The position numbers and the translations under genes were made by a program. From contig NZ_QUOV01000001.1 of the NCBI RefSeq assembly GCF_003390395.1, forward strand, positions 2,852,001 to 2,916,000: DNA of 64,000 nucleotides, read 5' to 3'. Shown here one piece after another: positions 5,588 through 12,631 of this stretch. A model generated the notes under the pieces. That model searched no databases. It worked only from the letters and a program-made list of their open reading frames with translations, and had not been told where the DNA came from. Position 1 is the stretch's first letter. The number at the start of each line of letters is the position of its first letter. This DNA is from Thalassotalea euphylliae (GTDB lineage: Bacteria > Pseudomonadota > Gammaproteobacteria > Enterobacterales > Alteromonadaceae).

Positions 5588-6910
5588 TTAATTTTCAGAA
5601 AGTAGCGGATTAGCTTCCGTCTCTTGGCCAATGTCTACTTGCTCATGGCCAATGTCTACTTGCTCGATTTTTTCAAAACGACGGGTAATTTTATCTGCCG
5701 AGGTATGAATTTGTTTAACATCATTTGCCGCTTGGTCGATATGGCGTGCTAAGTTGTTAAAACGCCCTTGGAAGCGGCCAAAGTCTTGCGCCAGCATGCC
5801 CAAGTGCTCTTGAATTAAATGCACTTGCTGTTTAGTCGCTTCGTCTTTAATCACCGCTCGTGCCGTAGTTAAAATGGCCATGAGCGTAGTTGGCGATGCT
5901 AACCACACACGTTGTTTATTGGCATATTCTACCAAGTCAGCATGGTGGGCATGAATTTCGGCAAATACCGCTTCAGCAGGAATAAACATAACTGCCCCAT
6001 CAGCGGTTTCATTTTCAATTAAATACTTGCTGGCGATATCGTTAATATGCTTTTTAATATCTTGCTTAAACTGCTTTTCCGCATTTTTACGCACCAATAA
6101 CTCATGCTCAGGGTTGGTCATGGTTTGGTAGCTTTCCAGCGGGAATTTCGAATCAACTACCACATTGCCGGTCGGTTTTGGTAGAAACAAAATACAGTCG
6201 GCAATCTTACCGTTCGATAAGGTATGTTGCAGCGCAAATTGGCTCTCAGGTAATACATTTCGCACGAGCGAGTTTAACTGCACTTCGCCAAAAGCACCGC
6301 GTGAGCGTTTATCCGCTAACACTTCTTGCAAGCTCACAACATTGCTGGAAAGCTCAGTAATTTTCTTTTGCGCGTCGTCAATTAAGGCCAAGCGTTTAAG
6401 AATATCGTTAAAGGTTTGAGTGGTTTTTTCAAAACCTTCGCTTAGGCGTTTGTCCACCTGACCACTAATTTCTTGCAGCCTTTTATCCGTTGATTGGGTA
6501 AGCTTTTCAATACTTTGCGCTTGCTCATCACGGTTAACTTTCGCCATCAAGGTAAGCTGCTCTTGCAACTGCTGCTGTTGCTGACGAAACAGTTGATTTA
6601 ACGATTGAAACTTCTCAAACAGCTGCTGCTGGCTATTTTGATCACTTTGCTTATGTTGCTGCATTAACTGCAACTTGGTTTCCGCCATCAACTCTTTAAT
6701 TTGATGCTGATTATTGACATAGCCCTGCTGAAACTGTTGAATCAACTGGCCTAAATTCGCCTCAATACGGACAACTGACGCTTGCTGTTCGCTCTGGTTT
6801 TTCTGTCTAAAAACACTAATTAAATTGATAAGAAAATTAAGGATAACTAAGGCAAGTATTGAAAATAACAATAACTCGCTAGTGGATAATTGTTGAAAAA
6901 ATTCGTTCAC
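5588..6910 (-). CDS. rmuC: DNA recombination protein RmuC, 440 aa
   Basis: RmuC-family protein, thought to limit rearrangements at inverted repeats; its core belongs to the restriction-endonuclease-like superfamily. One N-terminal membrane helix (~12-32) is followed by a long Gln-rich coiled coil (~40-190) and the conserved RmuC domain (~195-395, including RGAFGEVQL, NGKIADCILFLPKPTG, VDSKFPLE, FIPAEAVFAEIHA). The C-terminus carries a tandem duplication: 21 bp repeated at 5625-5645 and 5646-5666 gives the peptide EQVDIGHEQVDIGQ. A second short repeat lies just beyond the stop. ATG at 6910. It forms the left border of the accessory island. Confidence 0.93.
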   Translation of the reverse strand: MNEFFQQLSTSELLLFSILALVILNFLINLISVFRQKNQSEQQASVVRIEANLGQLIQQFQQGYVNNQHQIKELMAETKLQLMQQHKQSDQNSQQQLFEKFQSLNQLFRQQQQQLQEQLTLMAKVNRDEQAQSIEKLTQSTDKRLQEISGQVDKRLSEGFEKTTQTFNDILKRLALIDDAQKKITELSSNVVSLQEVLADKRSRGAFGEVQLNSLVRNVLPESQFALQHTLSNGKIADCILFLPKPTGNVVVDSKFPLESYQTMTNPEHELLVRKNAEKQFKQDIKKHINDIASKYLIENETADGAVMFIPAEAVFAEIHAHHADLVEYANKQRVWLASPTTLMAILTTARAVIKDEATKQQVHLIQEHLGMLAQDFGRFQGRFNNLARHIDQAANDVKQIHTSADKITRRFEKIEQVDIGHEQVDIGQETEANPLLSEN

Positions 6911-7369
6911 TGACTCACCGTGAAAACGCTTATGTTTTGCCGAGCAAAGCGACTAAGCTAAAGCCTTGCAACACAAGCACTGTAAATATTAACAGTTATT
7001 AGTAACATAAATTAGCACAATAAGAAATGCTAGCAGTGGTAAAAGCTTGAAACTAGCCAGAATTTAGCGCTTTTTGCGTAATAAATACGAAAATAGCAAA
7101 GATGAACTGGGCATTGGTTAAAGAGAAGCTATCAACTTCTATCAGTGATTAATTTATAAAATTTCATATGTATATAAACACAGTTCAAGATAAATCCTTC
7201 TTTAAACGGTGAAAGCGCGCAAATTGCTCCCTTTTAACAAGCATATGTTTATTCGTATTTGTTAAGTTATTGGCTAGTAAAGAAAAGTGCTATTCGCTAA
7301 AGTAAATAATAATAAACTAAAAGTTAAGGGCTGAGTGTGGAAAGCGCGCAATTTGCCTTCTAATAAACT
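6911..7369. other. Gene-free AT-rich stretch at the left edge of the island
   Basis: No convincing gene. It contains two copies of a ~20-bp motif around aaagcgcgcaa(a/t)ttgc, at 7209-7227 and 7337-7356, 128 bp apart. A short inverted pair, ttaacaa and ttgttaa, lies at about 7234-7265. The second motif copy ends ~14 bp before the first cassette boundary, so this may be the ancestral insertion site or a decayed attC. No integrase gene is present. Confidence 0.5.
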
Positions 7370-7411
7370 GTTAGTAGTTTCTGGAGCACTGAGCAGTCTA
7401 TAAGGGTTTAG

Positions 7412-7615
7412 GTGTTAAAGTTAATAATTTCATATGTAACACTACTCGTGATTCTCTTCAGTATTGGCTATGACTTTTATACTGGTGAAATCAATATGAA
7501 AGGCAGTGCCTTTTATTTAGATTCAGACTTACCGGTATTTATTGGCTTTGGAATTTTTAAACTCAGTATTGCATTAGGCTTCGTAGCCTACTACAAAAAA
7601 CAGTTACGAGAATAA
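7412..7615 (+). CDS. Cassette-borne small membrane protein, 67 aa, unknown function
   Basis: I do not recognise this protein. It has two hydrophobic segments (about residues 2-21 and 42-60) joined by a polar loop with FYTGEINMKGSAFYLDSD, and a basic tail YYKKQLRE, so it looks like a two-helix inner-membrane protein. The GTG start at 7412 follows a good ribosome site (aaggg, 5 nt upstream). It fills a cassette from 42 nt after the boundary to immediately before the attC, the usual compact cassette layout, with transcription in the normal cassette direction. Small membrane proteins are common cassette cargo, but nothing more specific can be claimed. Confidence 0.6.
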   Translation: MLKLIISYVTLLVILFSIGYDFYTGEINMKGSAFYLDSDLPVFIGFGIFKLSIALGFVAYYKKQLRE

Positions 7616-7644
7616 ACTACTAACAAGCAAATTAACTGGGACTT
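7614..7644 (+). repeat. attC site of cassette 1, left arm (split by IS3 and IS1111 elements)
   Basis: R'' region aaactactaac, followed by aagcaaattaactggga, forms the left arm. The right arm, agcccgttatttgggc (8976-8991) plus the gttaggc core at 10397-10403, is a near-complement with extra bases, as attC stems show. The loop segment 8928-8975 contains gggcta/tagccc pairing and the run ttcgcttcgctcaa that I know from Vibrio/Shewanella-like attC sites. The reconstructed site is about 100 nt. Confidence 0.72.
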
Positions 7645-7696
7645 TGTAGTTCCCCCATTTTAGTGGACACCTCCTTATCTCAATGAGGAGGCCATT

Positions 7697-8071
7697 ATGC
7701 CCAGATATACCAACCCCAGAAAAACATGGTTTTACCCAGTTGATTTCAAAATCAAAGCCGTCGAACTAAGCTTAAAAGACGATGTCATGTCAAAGGATGT
7801 TGCTCATGCGCTCGATATTCATCCCTTTATGTTAAGCCGGTGGCGTAAAGAATATCGAGAGGGGAAATTTAACTTACCCGTGCGCTATAAAAGCAACAAG
7901 GAATTAATGAGTGAACTCCCCTCCAAACAAGAGCTGAATAAAATCAAACAACTCCAACGAGAAAATGAACGCTTAAAGCAGGAGAATGACCTGCTAAAAA
8001 AGTGGCAACGGTATCTGGCGGAAGTACATCAGCACGATTTGGATTCATCAAAAGGCACGGAAAAGCCTTAG
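7697..8071 (+). CDS. IS3-family transposase OrfA, 124 aa
   Basis: DNA-binding subunit with an N-terminal helix-turn-helix (~14-55: DFKIKAVELSLKDD, HALDIHPFMLSRWRKEYREG) and a C-terminal leucine-zipper region (~75-110: LNKIKQLQRENERLKQENDL). The ATG is preceded by tgaggagg, a strong ribosome site. Near its end the heptamer AAAAAAG (7996-8002) sits in the A AAA AAG register, which is a canonical -1 frameshift site. Ribosomes slipping there enter OrfB to make the OrfAB transposase, while OrfA alone usually acts as a repressor. Confidence 0.9.
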   Translation: MPRYTNPRKTWFYPVDFKIKAVELSLKDDVMSKDVAHALDIHPFMLSRWRKEYREGKFNLPVRYKSNKELMSELPSKQELNKIKQLQRENERLKQENDLLKKWQRYLAEVHQHDLDSSKGTEKP

Positions 8072-8889
8072 GTGTTAAGTACCTTTGTACTTGGTTAAAG
8101 GTGTCACGTAGTGGCTATTACGCATGGCTACACCGCTCCCCTTCGAATAGAGTGCTGGCCGATAAGACATTGCTAAACAACATAAAAAACGTATTTAATG
8201 CCAGCCTTCATACCTATGGTAGTCCCAGGGTGTTTGAGGCACTCAAAAGGCTCGGTATTCGAACAAGTAAAAAGCGAGTAGCACGGCTTATGCACGAGTA
8301 CGGTCTTGTCGCCCGTGCCGTCAAAACCTACCGTAAAACCGCGAAAGTGAAGTTTTTCTATAAGGAAATTGAGAACAAGCGCCAATCGCTTGAGAAGCCT
8401 GAGGGTATCAACCAACAATGGTCGGGCGACATTACTTACCTTAAAGTGGGTAAACGGTGGCACTACTTAGCTGTCGTGATTGATTTATTCTCTCGTCGAA
8501 TCGTGGGCTGGGCATTTGGGGCGAAGAAATCAACAGCATTAACCCTTAGCGCTTTGCGCCAAGCACTACATCAACGAAAGCCTCAAACACGTTTACTCTT
8601 TCACACCGACAGGGGCGCTGAATACCGCGCGCACGTCGTGCAGCAATTTCTACAACGCAATAACGTAGAGGCCAGTATGAATCGCCCTGGATGTTGCACA
8701 GACAATGCTGAAGTGGAGTCCTTTTTTCATTCGCTTAAAGCAGACCTCATTCGCGGCAATACATTCTCATCGGCAAATAAATTACACGCATTATTAAAGA
8801 GTTACCTAAATAACTTCTACAATAGACAGCGATTACATTCGAGTTTAGGATATCAAACACCTGCTGAATTTGAGTCAGCAGTAAATTAA
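8002..8889 (+). CDS. IS3-family transposase OrfB (DDE integrase domain), 295 aa
   Basis: Catalytic half of the transposase, in the -1 frame relative to OrfA and probably made mainly as the OrfAB fusion rather than from its GTG at 8002. It has a helix-turn-helix_21-like segment (~50-85: NASLHTYGSPRVFEALKRLG) and an rve core with the DDE residues in WSGDITYLKV, FHTDRGAEYR and DNAEVESFFHSLK. It ends with the typical NNFYNRQRLHSSLGYQTP. No stop or deletion is seen, so it looks functional. Confidence 0.92.
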   Translation: MATVSGGSTSARFGFIKRHGKALGVKYLCTWLKVSRSGYYAWLHRSPSNRVLADKTLLNNIKNVFNASLHTYGSPRVFEALKRLGIRTSKKRVARLMHEYGLVARAVKTYRKTAKVKFFYKEIENKRQSLEKPEGINQQWSGDITYLKVGKRWHYLAVVIDLFSRRIVGWAFGAKKSTALTLSALRQALHQRKPQTRLLFHTDRGAEYRAHVVQQFLQRNNVEASMNRPGCCTDNAEVESFFHSLKADLIRGNTFSSANKLHALLKSYLNNFYNRQRLHSSLGYQTPAEFESAVN

Positions 8890-9005
8890 ACATGGAGCGT
8901 GTCCACTTTATCGGGGCAAGATCACTTAAAATCGCGGGCTATTTTCGCTTCGCTCAAGTTTAGCCCACTATTTTAAGCCCGTTATTTGGGCTACATGGAC
9001 TCCCC

Positions 9006-9282
9006 TTTGTCAAGCACAAGCAGTCTCTGACAACAAGAAAGTCTGACAGCAGCTCTACATTCGGCGTTTGTTAGCATACTGCCGTAACAGCTTGTGCTAT
9101 CGCCCTGATGATTTGCGCTTGAGCATGGCCTCATTCGTTAAACAGCGTCTTCTCTTTCAAGAAATGCGCTTCCCGACTAAACAGGCTTTTATGCTCTCGG
9201 TCTGACCGTGTTATCGTCAATCGCTCATGCTAAGACGCGGTGGGGTTAACCGTTAGGGTTACCTCTACAACTTCAATCTTTT
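9006..9282 (-). ncRNA. Candidate seekRNA/bridge RNA region of the IS1111 element
   Basis: This 277-bp non-coding stretch lies downstream of the transposase inside the element. In the IS1111 group the guide RNA that directs target choice is encoded at this end (established for the family). It contains tcattcgtta at 9131-9140, identical to 10391-10400, which spans the IS right tip and the attC core. RNA ends and loops were not determined. Confidence 0.5.
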
Positions 9283-10323
9283 CTATTTTACATAATCTAT
9301 TTGGTATTCGTTTTTACTTCGAAGCAATGCCCATATCAACCGTGCATTCTTGGCTGCAAGCGCGACGGTTGCCCGTTTAAATCCTCGTCGCTCAATCAGC
9401 TCTTTTACCCATAAACTGGTTCTGTCTGTTTTATGTTTGCAGTTGGCTATTACGGCTCGAGCACCGTGAATGAGTGAGGTGCGAATGTGTTTTTCGCCAC
9501 GTTTACTGATTCGGCCAAGTTTCACTTGCCCACCTGTCGTGTATTGCCTAGGTACTAGACCAATCCAAGCGCTAAAGGCGCGGCTGGTATCAAAATCTTT
9601 TGCATCACTCACCGTCGCAACAACCGCCGTTGCCGTGATTTCGCCAACCCCAGGAATGGTCATTAAGCGCCTTGCCGCGTTCATTTGGTTCGCGAGTTGA
9701 TAGAGCTTTCGGTCATGTTTAAGAATTTGCTGGTTTAATGCTTTAATGTCTTGCCATAAGTCACTTAGTAGCTCTCTAGCGAGCATGGGTAAGTTGTTCT
9801 CACCATCTTCTAAGATGCCACTAATGGCATGTTGTGCCGGATAACGTCCTTTGGGCATGATAATACCAAATTCTGCGAGTAAGCCCCGAAGCCGATTAAT
9901 GAGTGCGGTTCTGTCCTTGATAGCCCCTTGGCGAATACGGTGTAGGCAAAGCACGGCTTGTTGCTCTTCACTTTTGATGGTGACAAAGCGCGTTTTGGGA
10001 CGGGTCACCGCTTCACAAATGGCTTCAGCGTCGTTGGCATCGTTCTTTTCGTTTTGGCGATACGGAATCACGAACTTTGAGGCCATGATGCGTACTTCAT
10101 GGCCAAGCTTAGTAAACTCTCTTGCCCAGTAGTGTGCGCCTGAGCACGCTTCCATACCAATGATACACGCTGGCAACTTAGCAACTTCAGCTAACAGTTT
10201 GTTTCGCTTAACGGTTTTTCGTAATTGACACTTGTCATGACTATCGACACCGTGGATACTGAAAACAGATTTGGCTAAATCGATGCCAATTGCTTTAATT
10301 AGTGACATATGGACTCTCCTCAA
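9283..10323 (-). CDS. IS110/IS1111-family transposase (DEDD recombinase), 346 aa
   Basis: The N-terminal RuvC-like DEDD domain shows GIDLAKSVFSIHGVD (~12-26), GMEACSGAHYWARE (~56-69) and NEKNDANDAEAICEA (~91-105) with acidic catalytic residues. The C-terminal Transposase_20 domain has the helix-hairpin-helix-like RRLMTIPGVGEITATAV (~217-233) and the SAWIGLVPRQYTTGGQVKLG segment (~250-269). Length is normal for the family and no frame damage is visible. The annotated GTG/ATG choice is uncertain: the conserved protein could begin at the ATG five codons in (10308). These enzymes use an RNA guide and move through a circular intermediate. Confidence 0.93.
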   Translation of the reverse strand: MRRVHMSLIKAIGIDLAKSVFSIHGVDSHDKCQLRKTVKRNKLLAEVAKLPACIIGMEACSGAHYWAREFTKLGHEVRIMASKFVIPYRQNEKNDANDAEAICEAVTRPKTRFVTIKSEEQQAVLCLHRIRQGAIKDRTALINRLRGLLAEFGIIMPKGRYPAQHAISGILEDGENNLPMLARELLSDLWQDIKALNQQILKHDRKLYQLANQMNAARRLMTIPGVGEITATAVVATVSDAKDFDTSRAFSAWIGLVPRQYTTGGQVKLGRISKRGEKHIRTSLIHGARAVIANCKHKTDRTSLWVKELIERRGFKRATVALAAKNARLIWALLRSKNEYQIDYVK

Positions 10324-10424
10324 TTGAAGCTACTTATCAACTTCACTATGGCACACTCGCTAGAGAAAGATGCCGAGCGGGGAGTCCATATCATTCGTTA
10401 GGCGACTACAAATAGGCCATTGAC

Positions 10425-10925
10425 ATGGACAAAGAAGAGTTTTATCGAATTGCTAAAGAAGAAGGTTTCATTGAAACTTTTAAAAAACTTTTGGATCAGA
10501 AAGTTGAAGGAGATCCTTGGAAGGAGCGCTATATACCGGTTTTGTCGATTATCGCTGTTATAATTACGGCCCTTGCAATGCCTATTTCAAACATAGTTAT
10601 AGAAAATTCGCGGAGCACCAATGCAAGTAAAATTGGCGTCAATGAATCAGAGAAATACCTGATTCGAGAGAAATTCGCCGTTTTTTGTGGCTCACTAGTT
10701 TCGTCAGATATTGGCGGCGAATCTTATGAATCTGATATTTTTAGAAAGTTTTACAGTATTCAAAGCTTAATACCAAGAGAAGATCTTAAAGATGTTCACC
10801 GCTCAATCGACTTGGTTTTAAAGGAGCCAGACTTTACGAAACGTAAGAAAATGGCTCGACAAACTTGTTATAAGCTAGGTCTAGACCTAGATGATCTTAT
10901 TAAAGGTCGTAGGAAAAATCGATAA
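10425..10925 (+). CDS. Cassette-borne hypothetical protein with one membrane helix, 166 aa
   Basis: I do not recognise a family. The ATG at 10425 lies 28 nt after the cassette boundary and the stop codon is 3 nt before the attC, the normal tight cassette layout. An acidic/basic N-terminus (residues 1-34) is followed by one hydrophobic helix (~38-56, PVLSIIAVIITALAMPISNI). The soluble part (~65-166) is charged and carries two cysteines and a basic tail KGRRKNR. The topology suggests a membrane-anchored protein with a small cytosolic or periplasmic domain. It is more AT-rich than the neighbouring core genes, as cassette cargo often is. No function is claimed. Confidence 0.65.
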   Translation: MDKEEFYRIAKEEGFIETFKKLLDQKVEGDPWKERYIPVLSIIAVIITALAMPISNIVIENSRSTNASKIGVNESEKYLIREKFAVFCGSLVSSDIGGESYESDIFRKFYSIQSLIPREDLKDVHRSIDLVLKEPDFTKRKKMARQTCYKLGLDLDDLIKGRRKNR

Positions 10926-10927
10926 AA

Positions 10928-10957
10928 GTCGCCTAACAAGCGCATTAATAAGGACAA
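10928..10957 (+). repeat. attC site of cassette 2, left arm only
   Basis: gtcgcctaacaagcgcatta followed by ataaggacaa. It has the same plan as the attC of cassette 1 (ctaacaagc...ggac). The IS3 copy begins 21 nt after the final c of taac in both sites. Confidence 0.65.
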
Positions 10958-11035
10958 TGTAGTTCCCCCATTTTAGTGGACACCTCCTTATCTCAATGAG
11001 GAGGCCATTATGCCCAGATACACCAAACACAAAAA
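10958..11035 (+). mobile_element. Truncated left end of a second IS3 copy
   Basis: The first 65 bases are identical to the left end of the intact IS3 element (7645 onward), including the ribosome site and the OrfA start codon (here at 11010). Similarity then fades within about 13 bases and the sequence runs into the terminator of the fumarase gene. Only this ~78-bp end remains, so a deletion removed the rest of the element and the right part of the array. Confidence 0.85.
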
Positions 11036-11055
11036 AGGCGCTAATAGCGCCTTTT
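11031..11055 (-). terminator. Terminator of the fumarase gene
   Basis: The stem ggcgcta/tagcgcc (11037-11051) is followed on the minus strand by a run of six T (complement of 11031-11036). It lies 53 bp past the fumarase stop codon and marks the right border of the island. Confidence 0.8.
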
Positions 11056-11107: not shown

Positions 11108-12631
11108 TTACGCACCTAGCTTTTCGTCTAGCTCTTCAATTTTCGCCTGCCAAATAGCAGGACCAGTCACATGAGCAGATTCACCTGTGCTATCTACCGC
11201 AACGGTTACTGGCATATCTTCAACGTCAAACTCGTAAATCGCTTCCATACCTAAGTCTTCAAAGGCAACCACTTTTGCGTGTTTAATCGCTTTTGATACC
11301 AAGTATGCTGCGCCACCTACAGCCATTAAATACACAGATTTGTTGTTCTTAATAGATTCACACGTTGCTGGGCCACGCTCAGCTTTACCGATTGAACCAA
11401 TTAGGCCAGTTTGCGATAACATAAGGTCAGTGAACTTATCCATGCGAGTTGCGGTTGTTGGGCCTGCTGGGCCTACTGCTTCGTCGCCAATAGCATCTAC
11501 TGGGCCTACGTAGTAAATAAACTTATCAGTGAAATCTACTGGTAGCGCTTCACCGTTTGCCATCATCTCTTGAATGCGCTTATGTGCAGCGTCACGACCC
11601 GTTAAAATTTTACCGCTTAGCAATAAGGTTTCACCAGTTTTCCATTCGCTTACATCGGCTTTTTTCAAGTCGTTTACGTTAACACGGCGCACATTTTCAC
11701 CGACTTCCCAAGTGATTTCTGGCCAGTCTTCTAATTTAGGTGGAGTTAAATCCGCAGGGCCTGAGCCATCTAAATGGAAATGTACGTGGCGGGTTGCCGC
11801 ACAGTTAGGGATCATCACCACTGGCTTAGACGCCGCGTGTGTAGGTGCTGAGTTGATTTTCACATCAACCACAGTGGTTAAACCGCCAAGGCCTTGTGCA
11901 CCAATGCCTAGCTTGTTAACACGCTCATAAATTTCTAAACGCAATTCTTCTTCCGCGTTTTGTGGGCCACGATCAATCAATTCTTGAATGTCTACTGGGT
12001 CCATTAAGCTTTCTTTAGCTAATACACCTGCTTTTTCAGCGGTACCACCAACACCAATACCAATCATACCCGGTGGACACCAGCCTGCGCCCATTTTCGG
12101 TAAGGTTTCAACTACCCAGTCAGCGATTGAGTCAGACGGGTTTAGCATCGCCATTTTGGTTTTGTTTTCACTACCGCCACCTTTAGCAGCGATCATCACT
12201 TCCACTTCGTTGCCTTCCACTAAGTCGATATGGACAACTGATGGCGTGTTATCTTTAGTATTTTTACGTGTGCCCGCAGGGTCAGCAACAATCGACGCAC
12301 GTAACGGGTTATCTGGGTTCATGTACGCGCGGCGCGTACCTTCATCCACCATTTGCTGAACTGTCATGTCAGTGCTGTCCCACTGAACAGCCATACCCAC
12401 TTTCACGAAACAAGTCACGATACCTGTATCTTGACAAATTGGGCGCTTACCCGTTGCCGACATGCGTGAGTTAATCAGAATTTGTGCAATGGCGTCTTTT
12501 GCCGCTTGGCTTTCTTCTTTGTGATAAGCCTTTTCAAGCGCTTGAACGAAATCCAATGGATGGTAGTAAGAAATGTATTGCAGAGCATCTGCAATCGATT
12601 CAATAAAGTCTTGTTGTTTAATGATAGCCAT
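11108..12631 (-). CDS. fumA: Class I (iron-sulfur) fumarate hydratase, 507 aa
   Basis: Cytosolic TCA-cycle enzyme interconverting fumarate and malate with an oxygen-sensitive [4Fe-4S] cluster. The N-terminal alpha part (~1-290) carries the three cluster cysteines C66 (GKRPICQDTG), C185 (GAGWCPPG) and C277 (IPNCAATRH). The C-terminal beta part (~330-507) includes LLSGKILTGRDAAHKRI and GPAGPTTATRMD. Length is that of fused FumA/FumB-type enzymes. The start ATG at 12631 gives the usual N-terminus. The gene is monocistronic, with a terminator adjacent to the IS fragment. The symbol is by similarity; FumA and FumB cannot be separated here. Confidence 0.93.
   Translation of the reverse strand: MAIIKQQDFIESIADALQYISYYHPLDFVQALEKAYHKEESQAAKDAIAQILINSRMSATGKRPICQDTGIVTCFVKVGMAVQWDSTDMTVQQMVDEGTRRAYMNPDNPLRASIVADPAGTRKNTKDNTPSVVHIDLVEGNEVEVMIAAKGGGSENKTKMAMLNPSDSIADWVVETLPKMGAGWCPPGMIGIGVGGTAEKAGVLAKESLMDPVDIQELIDRGPQNAEEELRLEIYERVNKLGIGAQGLGGLTTVVDVKINSAPTHAASKPVVMIPNCAATRHVHFHLDGSGPADLTPPKLEDWPEITWEVGENVRRVNVNDLKKADVSEWKTGETLLLSGKILTGRDAAHKRIQEMMANGEALPVDFTDKFIYYVGPVDAIGDEAVGPAGPTTATRMDKFTDLMLSQTGLIGSIGKAERGPATCESIKNNKSVYLMAVGGAAYLVSKAIKHAKVVAFEDLGMEAIYEFDVEDMPVTVAVDSTGESAHVTGPAIWQAKIEELDEKLGA

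Follow-up and report, generated by a model that had tools for sequence, protein, structure and literature searches.

Interrupted integron cassettes between rmuC and a fumarase gene of Thalassotalea euphylliae, and an IS3 clade that appears to aim at attC

A cluster of attC sites lacking integron-integrase (CALIN) is a described form of cassette array, and CALINs have been reported at chromosomal loci that recur and lie apart from the main integron (PMC12444791); attG sites have been described as well (PMC12444791, PMC12901181). The targeting of attC is already known for two kinds of mobile elements, namely insertion sequences (ISs) of the IS1111-attC group (Tetu and Holmes 2008 and Post and Hall 2009, as cited in PMC11187229 and PMC12444791) and group IIC introns. 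Within the IS3 family, IS1397, ISKpn1 and ISPsy8 target repetitive extragenic palindromic (REP) sequences, where the transposase is held to set the specificity and a role of the helix-turn-helix of OrfA has been suggested (PMC1525189). A study of Shewanella reports that no IS was found interrupting attC (PMC9229058), and IS3 copies within cassette genes are reported for V. cholerae (PMC11023631). Here we examine a stretch of 64,000 nucleotides of Thalassotalea euphylliae, called the window throughout (NCBI RefSeq assembly GCF_003390395.1, contig NZ_QUOV01000001.1; C1:2852001-2916000 of the single-contig 4,357,276-bp genome, G000), and in it a small array of integron gene cassettes between rmuC and a fumarase gene, the attC sites of which are interrupted by ISs.

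Taken as it was first described, the locus is an ordinary displaced cassette array. However, an earlier note on this DNA overlooked the role of the IS elements, one of which is of an attC-seeking IS1111 type and the other an IS3 element with a fixed target in attC: attC1 is split by both, and another copy of the IS3 element interrupts attC2. We put at about 0.85 the probability that this is a displaced array whose attC sites were disabled by two unrelated ISs that both aim at attC, and that the IS3 clade concerned is guided by a short motif. Comparison of sequences lends strong support to the aiming of an IS3 clade at attC, and such targeting appears to be undescribed: the literature that could be searched for attC targeting beyond IS1111 elements and group II introns yielded no account of it in the IS3 family.

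The two cassettes and their interrupted attC sites

The array and its elements lie as follows, in window coordinates.

7360..7376, + strand: left junction, with the attI-like core ctaataaactG^TTAG and the start of cassette 1 (R' box from 7370)
7412..7615, + strand: open reading frame (ORF) of cassette 1, 67 aa, no assigned function (from the ORF list)
7614..7644, + strand: left arm of attC1 (R'' and L''), the last 3 nt of which (7642-7644) are the target duplication ctt
7645..8924, + strand: IS3-family element of 1280 bp, left end 24 nt past the start of TAACAA; orfA 7697-8071, orfB 8002-8889, duplication ctt repeated at 8925-8927
8928..8991, + strand: variable terminal part and L' arm of attC1, by comparison with the intact copy C1:2315233-2315333
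8992..10396, - strand: IS1111-type (IS110 family) element on the R' side of attC1, transposase 9283-10323; ends set by comparison, to within a few nt
10397..10406, + strand: R' box, which is the end of attC1 and the start of cassette 2
10425..10925, + strand: ORF of cassette 2, 166 aa, no assigned function, no Pfam or NCBIfam match
10928..10957, + strand: left arm of attC2; the right half is absent
10958..11032, + strand: truncated left end of a second copy of the same IS3 element, 24 nt past the start of TAACAA; the right limit is approximate, and similarity reaches 11036 at most

The earlier note had observed that each gene is bracketed by inverted boxes, and this holds exactly: 7370-7380 (gttagtagttt) is the reverse complement of 7614-7624 in 11/11 positions and 10397-10406 (gttaggcgac) that of 10928-10937 in 10/10, both second boxes open a ctaacaagc... 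sequence, and each cassette start mirrors the R'' box of its own attC at every position. Because inverted 10-mers are common in the window (63 pairs at 200-600 nt spacing, overlapping ones counted singly), the boxes alone prove little, and it is their context that gives them significance. The end that the note assigned to the array, 10957, is the last base ahead of the second IS3 fragment (10958). As it had also proposed, we removed the ISs in silico: the IS3 element was cut out together with one of its two duplicated triplets, and the IS1111-type element was excised where gggc meets gtta. The rejoined attC1 measures 101 nt, agrees in 91/101 positions with the intact attC at C1:2315233-2315333, has the full set of arms (R'', L'', L' and R') and folds into an attC hairpin with R''/R' and L''/L' paired; attC2 has the left arm only.

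The covariance model used for attC searches was built from 11 attC sequences, of Colwelliaceae type with a few others, and Vibrio-type sites may score low with it. Five of the 11 rows come from IS-bearing loci, and in the row from locus L051 the last three letters are wrong, the other 98/101 and the ten other rows being exact, the effect of which should be small. In the 11-sequence alignment, 16/28 predicted pairs have both sides changed in at least one sequence. Run on the window, a search that the earlier note had likewise suggested, the model did give a match, but a single weak one (8897-8998, 21.5 bits, E 0.0025), which is to be expected when both attC sites are interrupted. A gapped-alignment pairing test of the left arm against the right flank could not tell attC apart from other flanks and was abandoned.

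The element on the R' side of attC1 carries an IS110-family DEDD transposase (NF033542, 347.4 bits). All five full IS1111-type copies found in the genome have the subterminal inverted repeats atggactcccc/ggggagtccat and lie between gggc and gtta of attC, which we take to be the position expected of the IS1111-attC group. With the IS3 element at R''/L'' and the IS1111-type element at the R' end, each half of attC1 has thus been entered by an element of a different, unrelated family. With R''/L'' set 1.28 kb apart from L'/R', the IS3 insertion should stop or strongly reduce cassette excision. At another locus (L047, contig C2 of genome G297), the right flank of an IS3 copy runs into an IS1111-like end, so that both halves of the attC there appear to have been entered, like those of attC1 in the window.

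IS3-family insertions at a fixed distance from TAACAA

The IS3 element is identified by HTH_Tnp_1 in OrfA and the rve DDE domain in OrfB, by the match of OrfB to NF033516 (299.8 bits against a cut-off of 160), and by its TG...CA inverted repeats and 3-bp target duplication. Its orfA and orfB overlap at 8002-8071, where a programmed frameshift might yield OrfAB; the transposase has a 97% relative in Thalassotalea montiporae (Colwelliaceae). The genome holds four full copies, one that is internally deleted and one fragment, and in 6/6 of them TAACAA, of the attC R'' box type, stands 23-24 nt before the left end, in one orientation. Five lie in attC and the sixth interrupts flhB. The duplications are ctt/ctt (window), act/act, caa/caa and ggc/ggc, and the copy at C1:2316247 has caa/ctt. 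Because the upstream arms differ and the intact duplications (ctt, act, caa) differ too, several separate insertions are needed; the copy at C1:2316247, by contrast, is a recombinant between arrays, joined through IS copies, because its flanks are caa/ctt and its right side is 99.8% identical to that of the window, a stretch of IS3 plus IS1111 sequence shared by attC1 and C1:2316222-2319002. The flhB copy (C1:1237433-1237686, L028) is the internally deleted one, with the duplication ggc and a frame that is open across the joined flanks; both flhB pieces match Pfam Bac_export_2 (FlhB family), and the flhB sequence CCGCCTAACAAGG happens to set TAACAA 24 nt before the IS. Because flhB is interrupted, the strain may be without flagella.

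Relatives of the element were drawn from a genome-contig scan, which yielded 15 loci and contributed L030, L031 and L032, from genome samples and from plasmids. The genome samples took in 20 of 394 with matches for the order (E 1e-60), 3 of 369 for the class (1e-75), 9 of 398 for the phylum (1e-62) and 5 of 148 for the genus of G297, whose two-chromosome genomes we took for Vibrio (1e-60); these samples overlap, G000 itself is counted in the order, class and phylum figures, and the frequencies are not prevalences. We placed 37 left ends of copies or fragments, the six of G000 included, leaving out L054, for which inverted repeats were not found, L058 and L059, which lack the left part, L072, which is the window copy itself, and L033-L044 from the 15-locus scan, which are short C-terminal matches.

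TAAC precedes the IS3 left end in 35/37, at offset 23 (n=13) or 24 (n=22), against 0.31 expected from a background of 0.0041 per position (offsets 30-199). The full TAACAA is found in 33/37, with TAACCA at L103 and TAACAT at L104. Aligned at TAAC, the flanks have A in 34/35 at each of the two following positions, and T at +11 (33/35) and A at +14 (30/35) are also frequent; the latter two are features of the attC alignment as well and are lost at L074. Among IS3-family copies outside the clade, the motif at 23/24 was found in 0/19. This outgroup consists of L032, L060, L062, L063, L105-L107 and 12 plasmid copies (two E. coli IS3, IS1133, ISMra4 and ISDds1 included) hand-picked from 100 listed of 1247 records with matches, and the IS ends are uncertain for L060 and L096. 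The attC model matched (E 0.01 or better) at 21/33 clade loci and at 0/19 outgroup loci; five of the 21 are training loci, where the hits arise by construction, because those loci supplied model rows.

In a 37-row maximum-likelihood tree of transposases, L099 groups with all 19 rows that carry the motif in a single clade (100/98), which includes ISVisp1-like elements; the next branch to join it is L093, which is plasmid-borne and lacks the motif (100/99; midpoint root); L031 (frameshifted), L048, L049 (internal stop) and other near-copies were kept outside the tree. The clade transposases are 43-73% identical to that of the window and come from several families. One member (L075), on the conjugative IncC plasmid pKAZ2, lies 23 nt past TAACAA behind a PhnO-like gene with two attC matches nearby, and this setting shows that the clade is also present in plasmid-borne arrays. 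Relatives among the matches in phage records are less than 60% identical to the OrfB of L100.

These comparisons indicate that the insertion point of the clade is set by TAACAA, usually with C or A before it, 20-21 bp ahead of the 3-bp duplication. Recognition of TAACAA by the transposase is argued for by the fixed spacing, the fixed orientation, the restriction to one clade and two ORF insertions, in flhB (ggc) and at L074 (cac), which have TAACAAG at the same spacing and exact duplications; attC would be hit most often because TAACAA is part of the R'' box in these attC sites. One might argue instead that there is no targeting, that dispensable arrays simply keep random ISs, and that the position is accidental or the product of one event copied by cassette movement. 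The copies do sit in non-essential arrays, and the 99.8% identical pair shows that recombination moved some of them, but the position and orientation are fixed to 1 nt across elements of 43-73% transposase identity to that of the window and across several families, upstream arms and duplications differ among copies, the two ORF insertions still carry the motif, and the fixed 23/24-nt spacing is strongly contrary. We therefore find the absence of targeting scarcely credible.

The transposase might alternatively recognise attC in its folded hairpin form, as is the case for IntI and for group IIC-attC introns, rather than a linear motif, and it is true that most copies lie in attC and that IS3 members aiming at REP palindromes are known (PMC1525189). 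However, the flhB and L074 sites lie in open frames and keep TAACAAG at the same spacing with no match to the attC model, which found none up to E 1 at the flhB region (15 kb), L074, L053 or L102. Because these two copies keep the motif, a short sequence is the likely cue and recognition of the hairpin is improbable. Guidance by IntI bound at the R'' box, in place of the element's own protein, must also be weighed: the motif coincides with the IntI box, and intI was found in 17/24 genomes searched (23 carriers of clade transposases and G759, which carries a fragment), as well as in G700, the carrier of the non-attC copy L074. In contrast, 7/24, including the single-contig genomes G060 and G036, gave no intI match at E 1e-60 or better, although the integrase could have been present there in the past, and we judge this guidance to be unlikely too.

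We lean towards the view that the clade reads linear TAACAA two helical turns from the cut, without need of IntI, and has evolved targeting of the attC R'' box, in a range that would extend over several families of the class to the IncC plasmid and to at least one genome that belongs to another class (L103, TAACCA). The orfA end of clade elements faces the motif, as judged by comparison. The transposase complex, perhaps through the helix-turn-helix of OrfA, would bind double-stranded TAACAA and, once bound, would direct strand transfer about two helical turns away; 20-21 bp is two helical turns, which fits a protein binding on one face of the DNA.

Several observations weigh against our account of a displaced array disabled by a motif-guided clade. 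Two of the 37 left ends miss the motif, namely L099 and L077 (the G759 fragment, TGAC), and at L099 attC is found only in the right half and the two flanks are mismatched; the left flank of L099 was probably replaced later, because the element is near-identical to the motif-bearing L047, L098 and L100 and its right half is attC-like. Exact 3-bp duplications are kept in 18/35 copies with both ends, and the other 17 would have been altered after insertion. Copies in conserved attC cannot reveal which bases are read, and outside attC just two sites, flhB and L074, are clean; the settings of L053, L068 and L102, which lack a clear right half of attC, are ambiguous. At least one copy of G000 (C1:2316247) is recombinant, so that the 37 left ends are not all independent. 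Finally, the last attC of the window is cut, which puts the right array junction at an IntI site beyond demonstration.

Origin of the displaced array

The array is bordered by the following features.

5588..6910, - strand: rmuC, left chromosomal neighbour (Pfam RmuC, 217.6 bits)
11037-11051: terminator-like hairpin of the fumarase gene, ggcgctaatagcgcc, adjoining the IS3 fragment (read from the sequence)
11108..12631, - strand: fumarase gene, right chromosomal neighbour (Pfam Fumerase and Fumerase_C)

The earlier note reported no intI and read the locus as a CALIN or as cassettes at a secondary chromosomal site. The window indeed has none, but one intI above the family cut-off, absent from that account, is present in the genome (C1:1905157-1906104, 444.3 bits, full model), about 954 kb from the rmuC-fumarase locus; three further matches are weak and under the cut-off. 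What stands is a cassette array that has no integrase within the window and that probably occupies a secondary chromosomal site; because the genome carries intI 954 kb away, the array is displaced rather than orphan. With 150 of 2330 first-look candidates scored, the attC model matched at 25 places genome-wide (E 1 or better, best 103.7 bits): nine in C1:1898359-1903328, 12 in C1:2310168-2322742, one in the window and three weak ones elsewhere. The main array begins at an attI junction near C1:1904909, and array 2 begins near C1:2309728 with an attI sequence that closely resembles the one of the main integron; the genome profile search found no intI beside array 2. The window thus holds a third, displaced array of two cassettes, integrase-less, between rmuC and the fumarase gene.

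Other observations concern these arrays. In array 2 (C1:2309728-2322742; L026, L027) the platform seems to have been duplicated and the integrase then lost, four attC of two alternating types in the main array (C1:1901938-1903010) look like a tandem duplication of a two-cassette unit, and two weak attC matches (27.1 and 24.8 bits) 1.9 kb apart on one strand at C1:1640071-1642035 are possibly a fourth small array. Rfam searches of the window gave nothing at gathering thresholds (the presence of an attC family in Rfam is unchecked), and tRNA/tmRNA searches of the window gave none.

The left-junction core of the window is common to the attI of the main integron and of array 2. The left flank shares with attI only this core, TAATAAAYTG^TTA (TAATAAAYTGTTA), and has none of the attI upstream repeats. 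The cassette is joined at G^TT, and the left junction fits insertion at an attG site; the right junction was lost to the IS. An attI-like secondary site between rmuC and the fumarase gene would have taken up cassettes of the resident integron, with the IntI encoded 954 kb away as the likeliest agent.

The same site was examined at nine rmuC loci of relatives (L077-L085), one of which has cassette remains (L077, in G759). There rmuC is 97% identical, the left junction ctaataaactG^TT is the same and is followed by a different cassette, whose start resembles one in the main array of G000, and the attC arm is cut by the same truncated IS3 left end with the same border to the fumarase terminator. 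The fumarase gene and rmuC are adjacent, with a short gap and no cassettes, in L079, L080, L082 and L084, and no fumarase gene is seen next to rmuC in the uninformative L078, L081, L083 and L085; an empty site matching the window flank was found in none of the nine. Because the left junction is the same and the cassettes differ, cassettes at this site were exchanged since the two species parted, and as the arm next to the shared IS fragment differs between the species, recombination via IS copies is favoured over IntI on the right side. Just ahead of the left junction (window 7211-7360) there are two copies of gaaagcgcgcaa(a)ttgc, separated by about 130 bp, against one copy in the G759 stretch inspected, and a short duplication or insertion may have occurred.

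A different origin would make the rmuC-fumarase site the ancestral integron location, from which attI and intI were lost. The left junction shared by two species with different cassettes would agree with this, and array 2 shows that intI can vanish while attI remains; against it, the left flank has no trace of the attI repeats that the main integron and array 2 share, and four relatives have the site without cassettes. An ancestral location is therefore unlikely, and we prefer secondary insertion.

Cassette 1 has five other homologues in the protein collection (75-87%) and cassette 2 has one (90%), and neither protein was found in the 146 other genomes of 147 in the family (E 1e-5); narrow distribution is usual for cassette genes. 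A match of cassette 1 to Pfam DUF5803 was under its cut-off and was set aside.

Implications and comparison with known systems

If our reading is right, a simple rule predicts the landing site of one IS group and links IS target choice with integron evolution. It would offer a testable route for the locking of cassettes and for the rise or persistence of integrase-less arrays, such insertions being a common way for cassettes to become fixed and arrays silent, and it would suggest why attC searches can miss some arrays. It would also present a DDE transposase of a textbook family with a narrow target specificity, the determinants of which could be mapped against related elements without targeting, and at least three unrelated kinds of element (the IS3 clade, IS1111-attC elements and group IIC introns) would have converged on attC as their target.

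The window array resembles a CALIN in having cassette genes with attC and no nearby intI, and differs in that both attC are broken by ISs, so that the attC model finds one weak match only. Its second IS agrees with the IS1111-attC group in transposase family and in position at R'. The IS3 clade likewise aims at attC in one orientation, but its OrfB is of the DDE (rve) and not the DEDD type, it uses the other half of attC, and it leaves a 3-bp duplication. The nearest named element seen is ISVisp1 (the NCBI name of P0086), in which OrfB is identical to that of L100 in 288/292 positions; L100 sits 24 nt past TAACAA with an exact ttc duplication, whereas ISVisp1 is 55% identical to the window OrfB, and in the literature searched we found no mention of it. 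Group IIC-attC introns are similar as unrelated mobile elements that enter attC, also on the R'' side, and differ in being RNA-based and in using the folded bottom strand with a TTGT/T consensus (PMC7923331). The REP-targeting IS3 elements, likened here by description and not by sequence, share the family and a narrow repeated target, which in their case is the REP palindrome (PMC1525189) and in the clade described here is TAACAA, mostly in attC.

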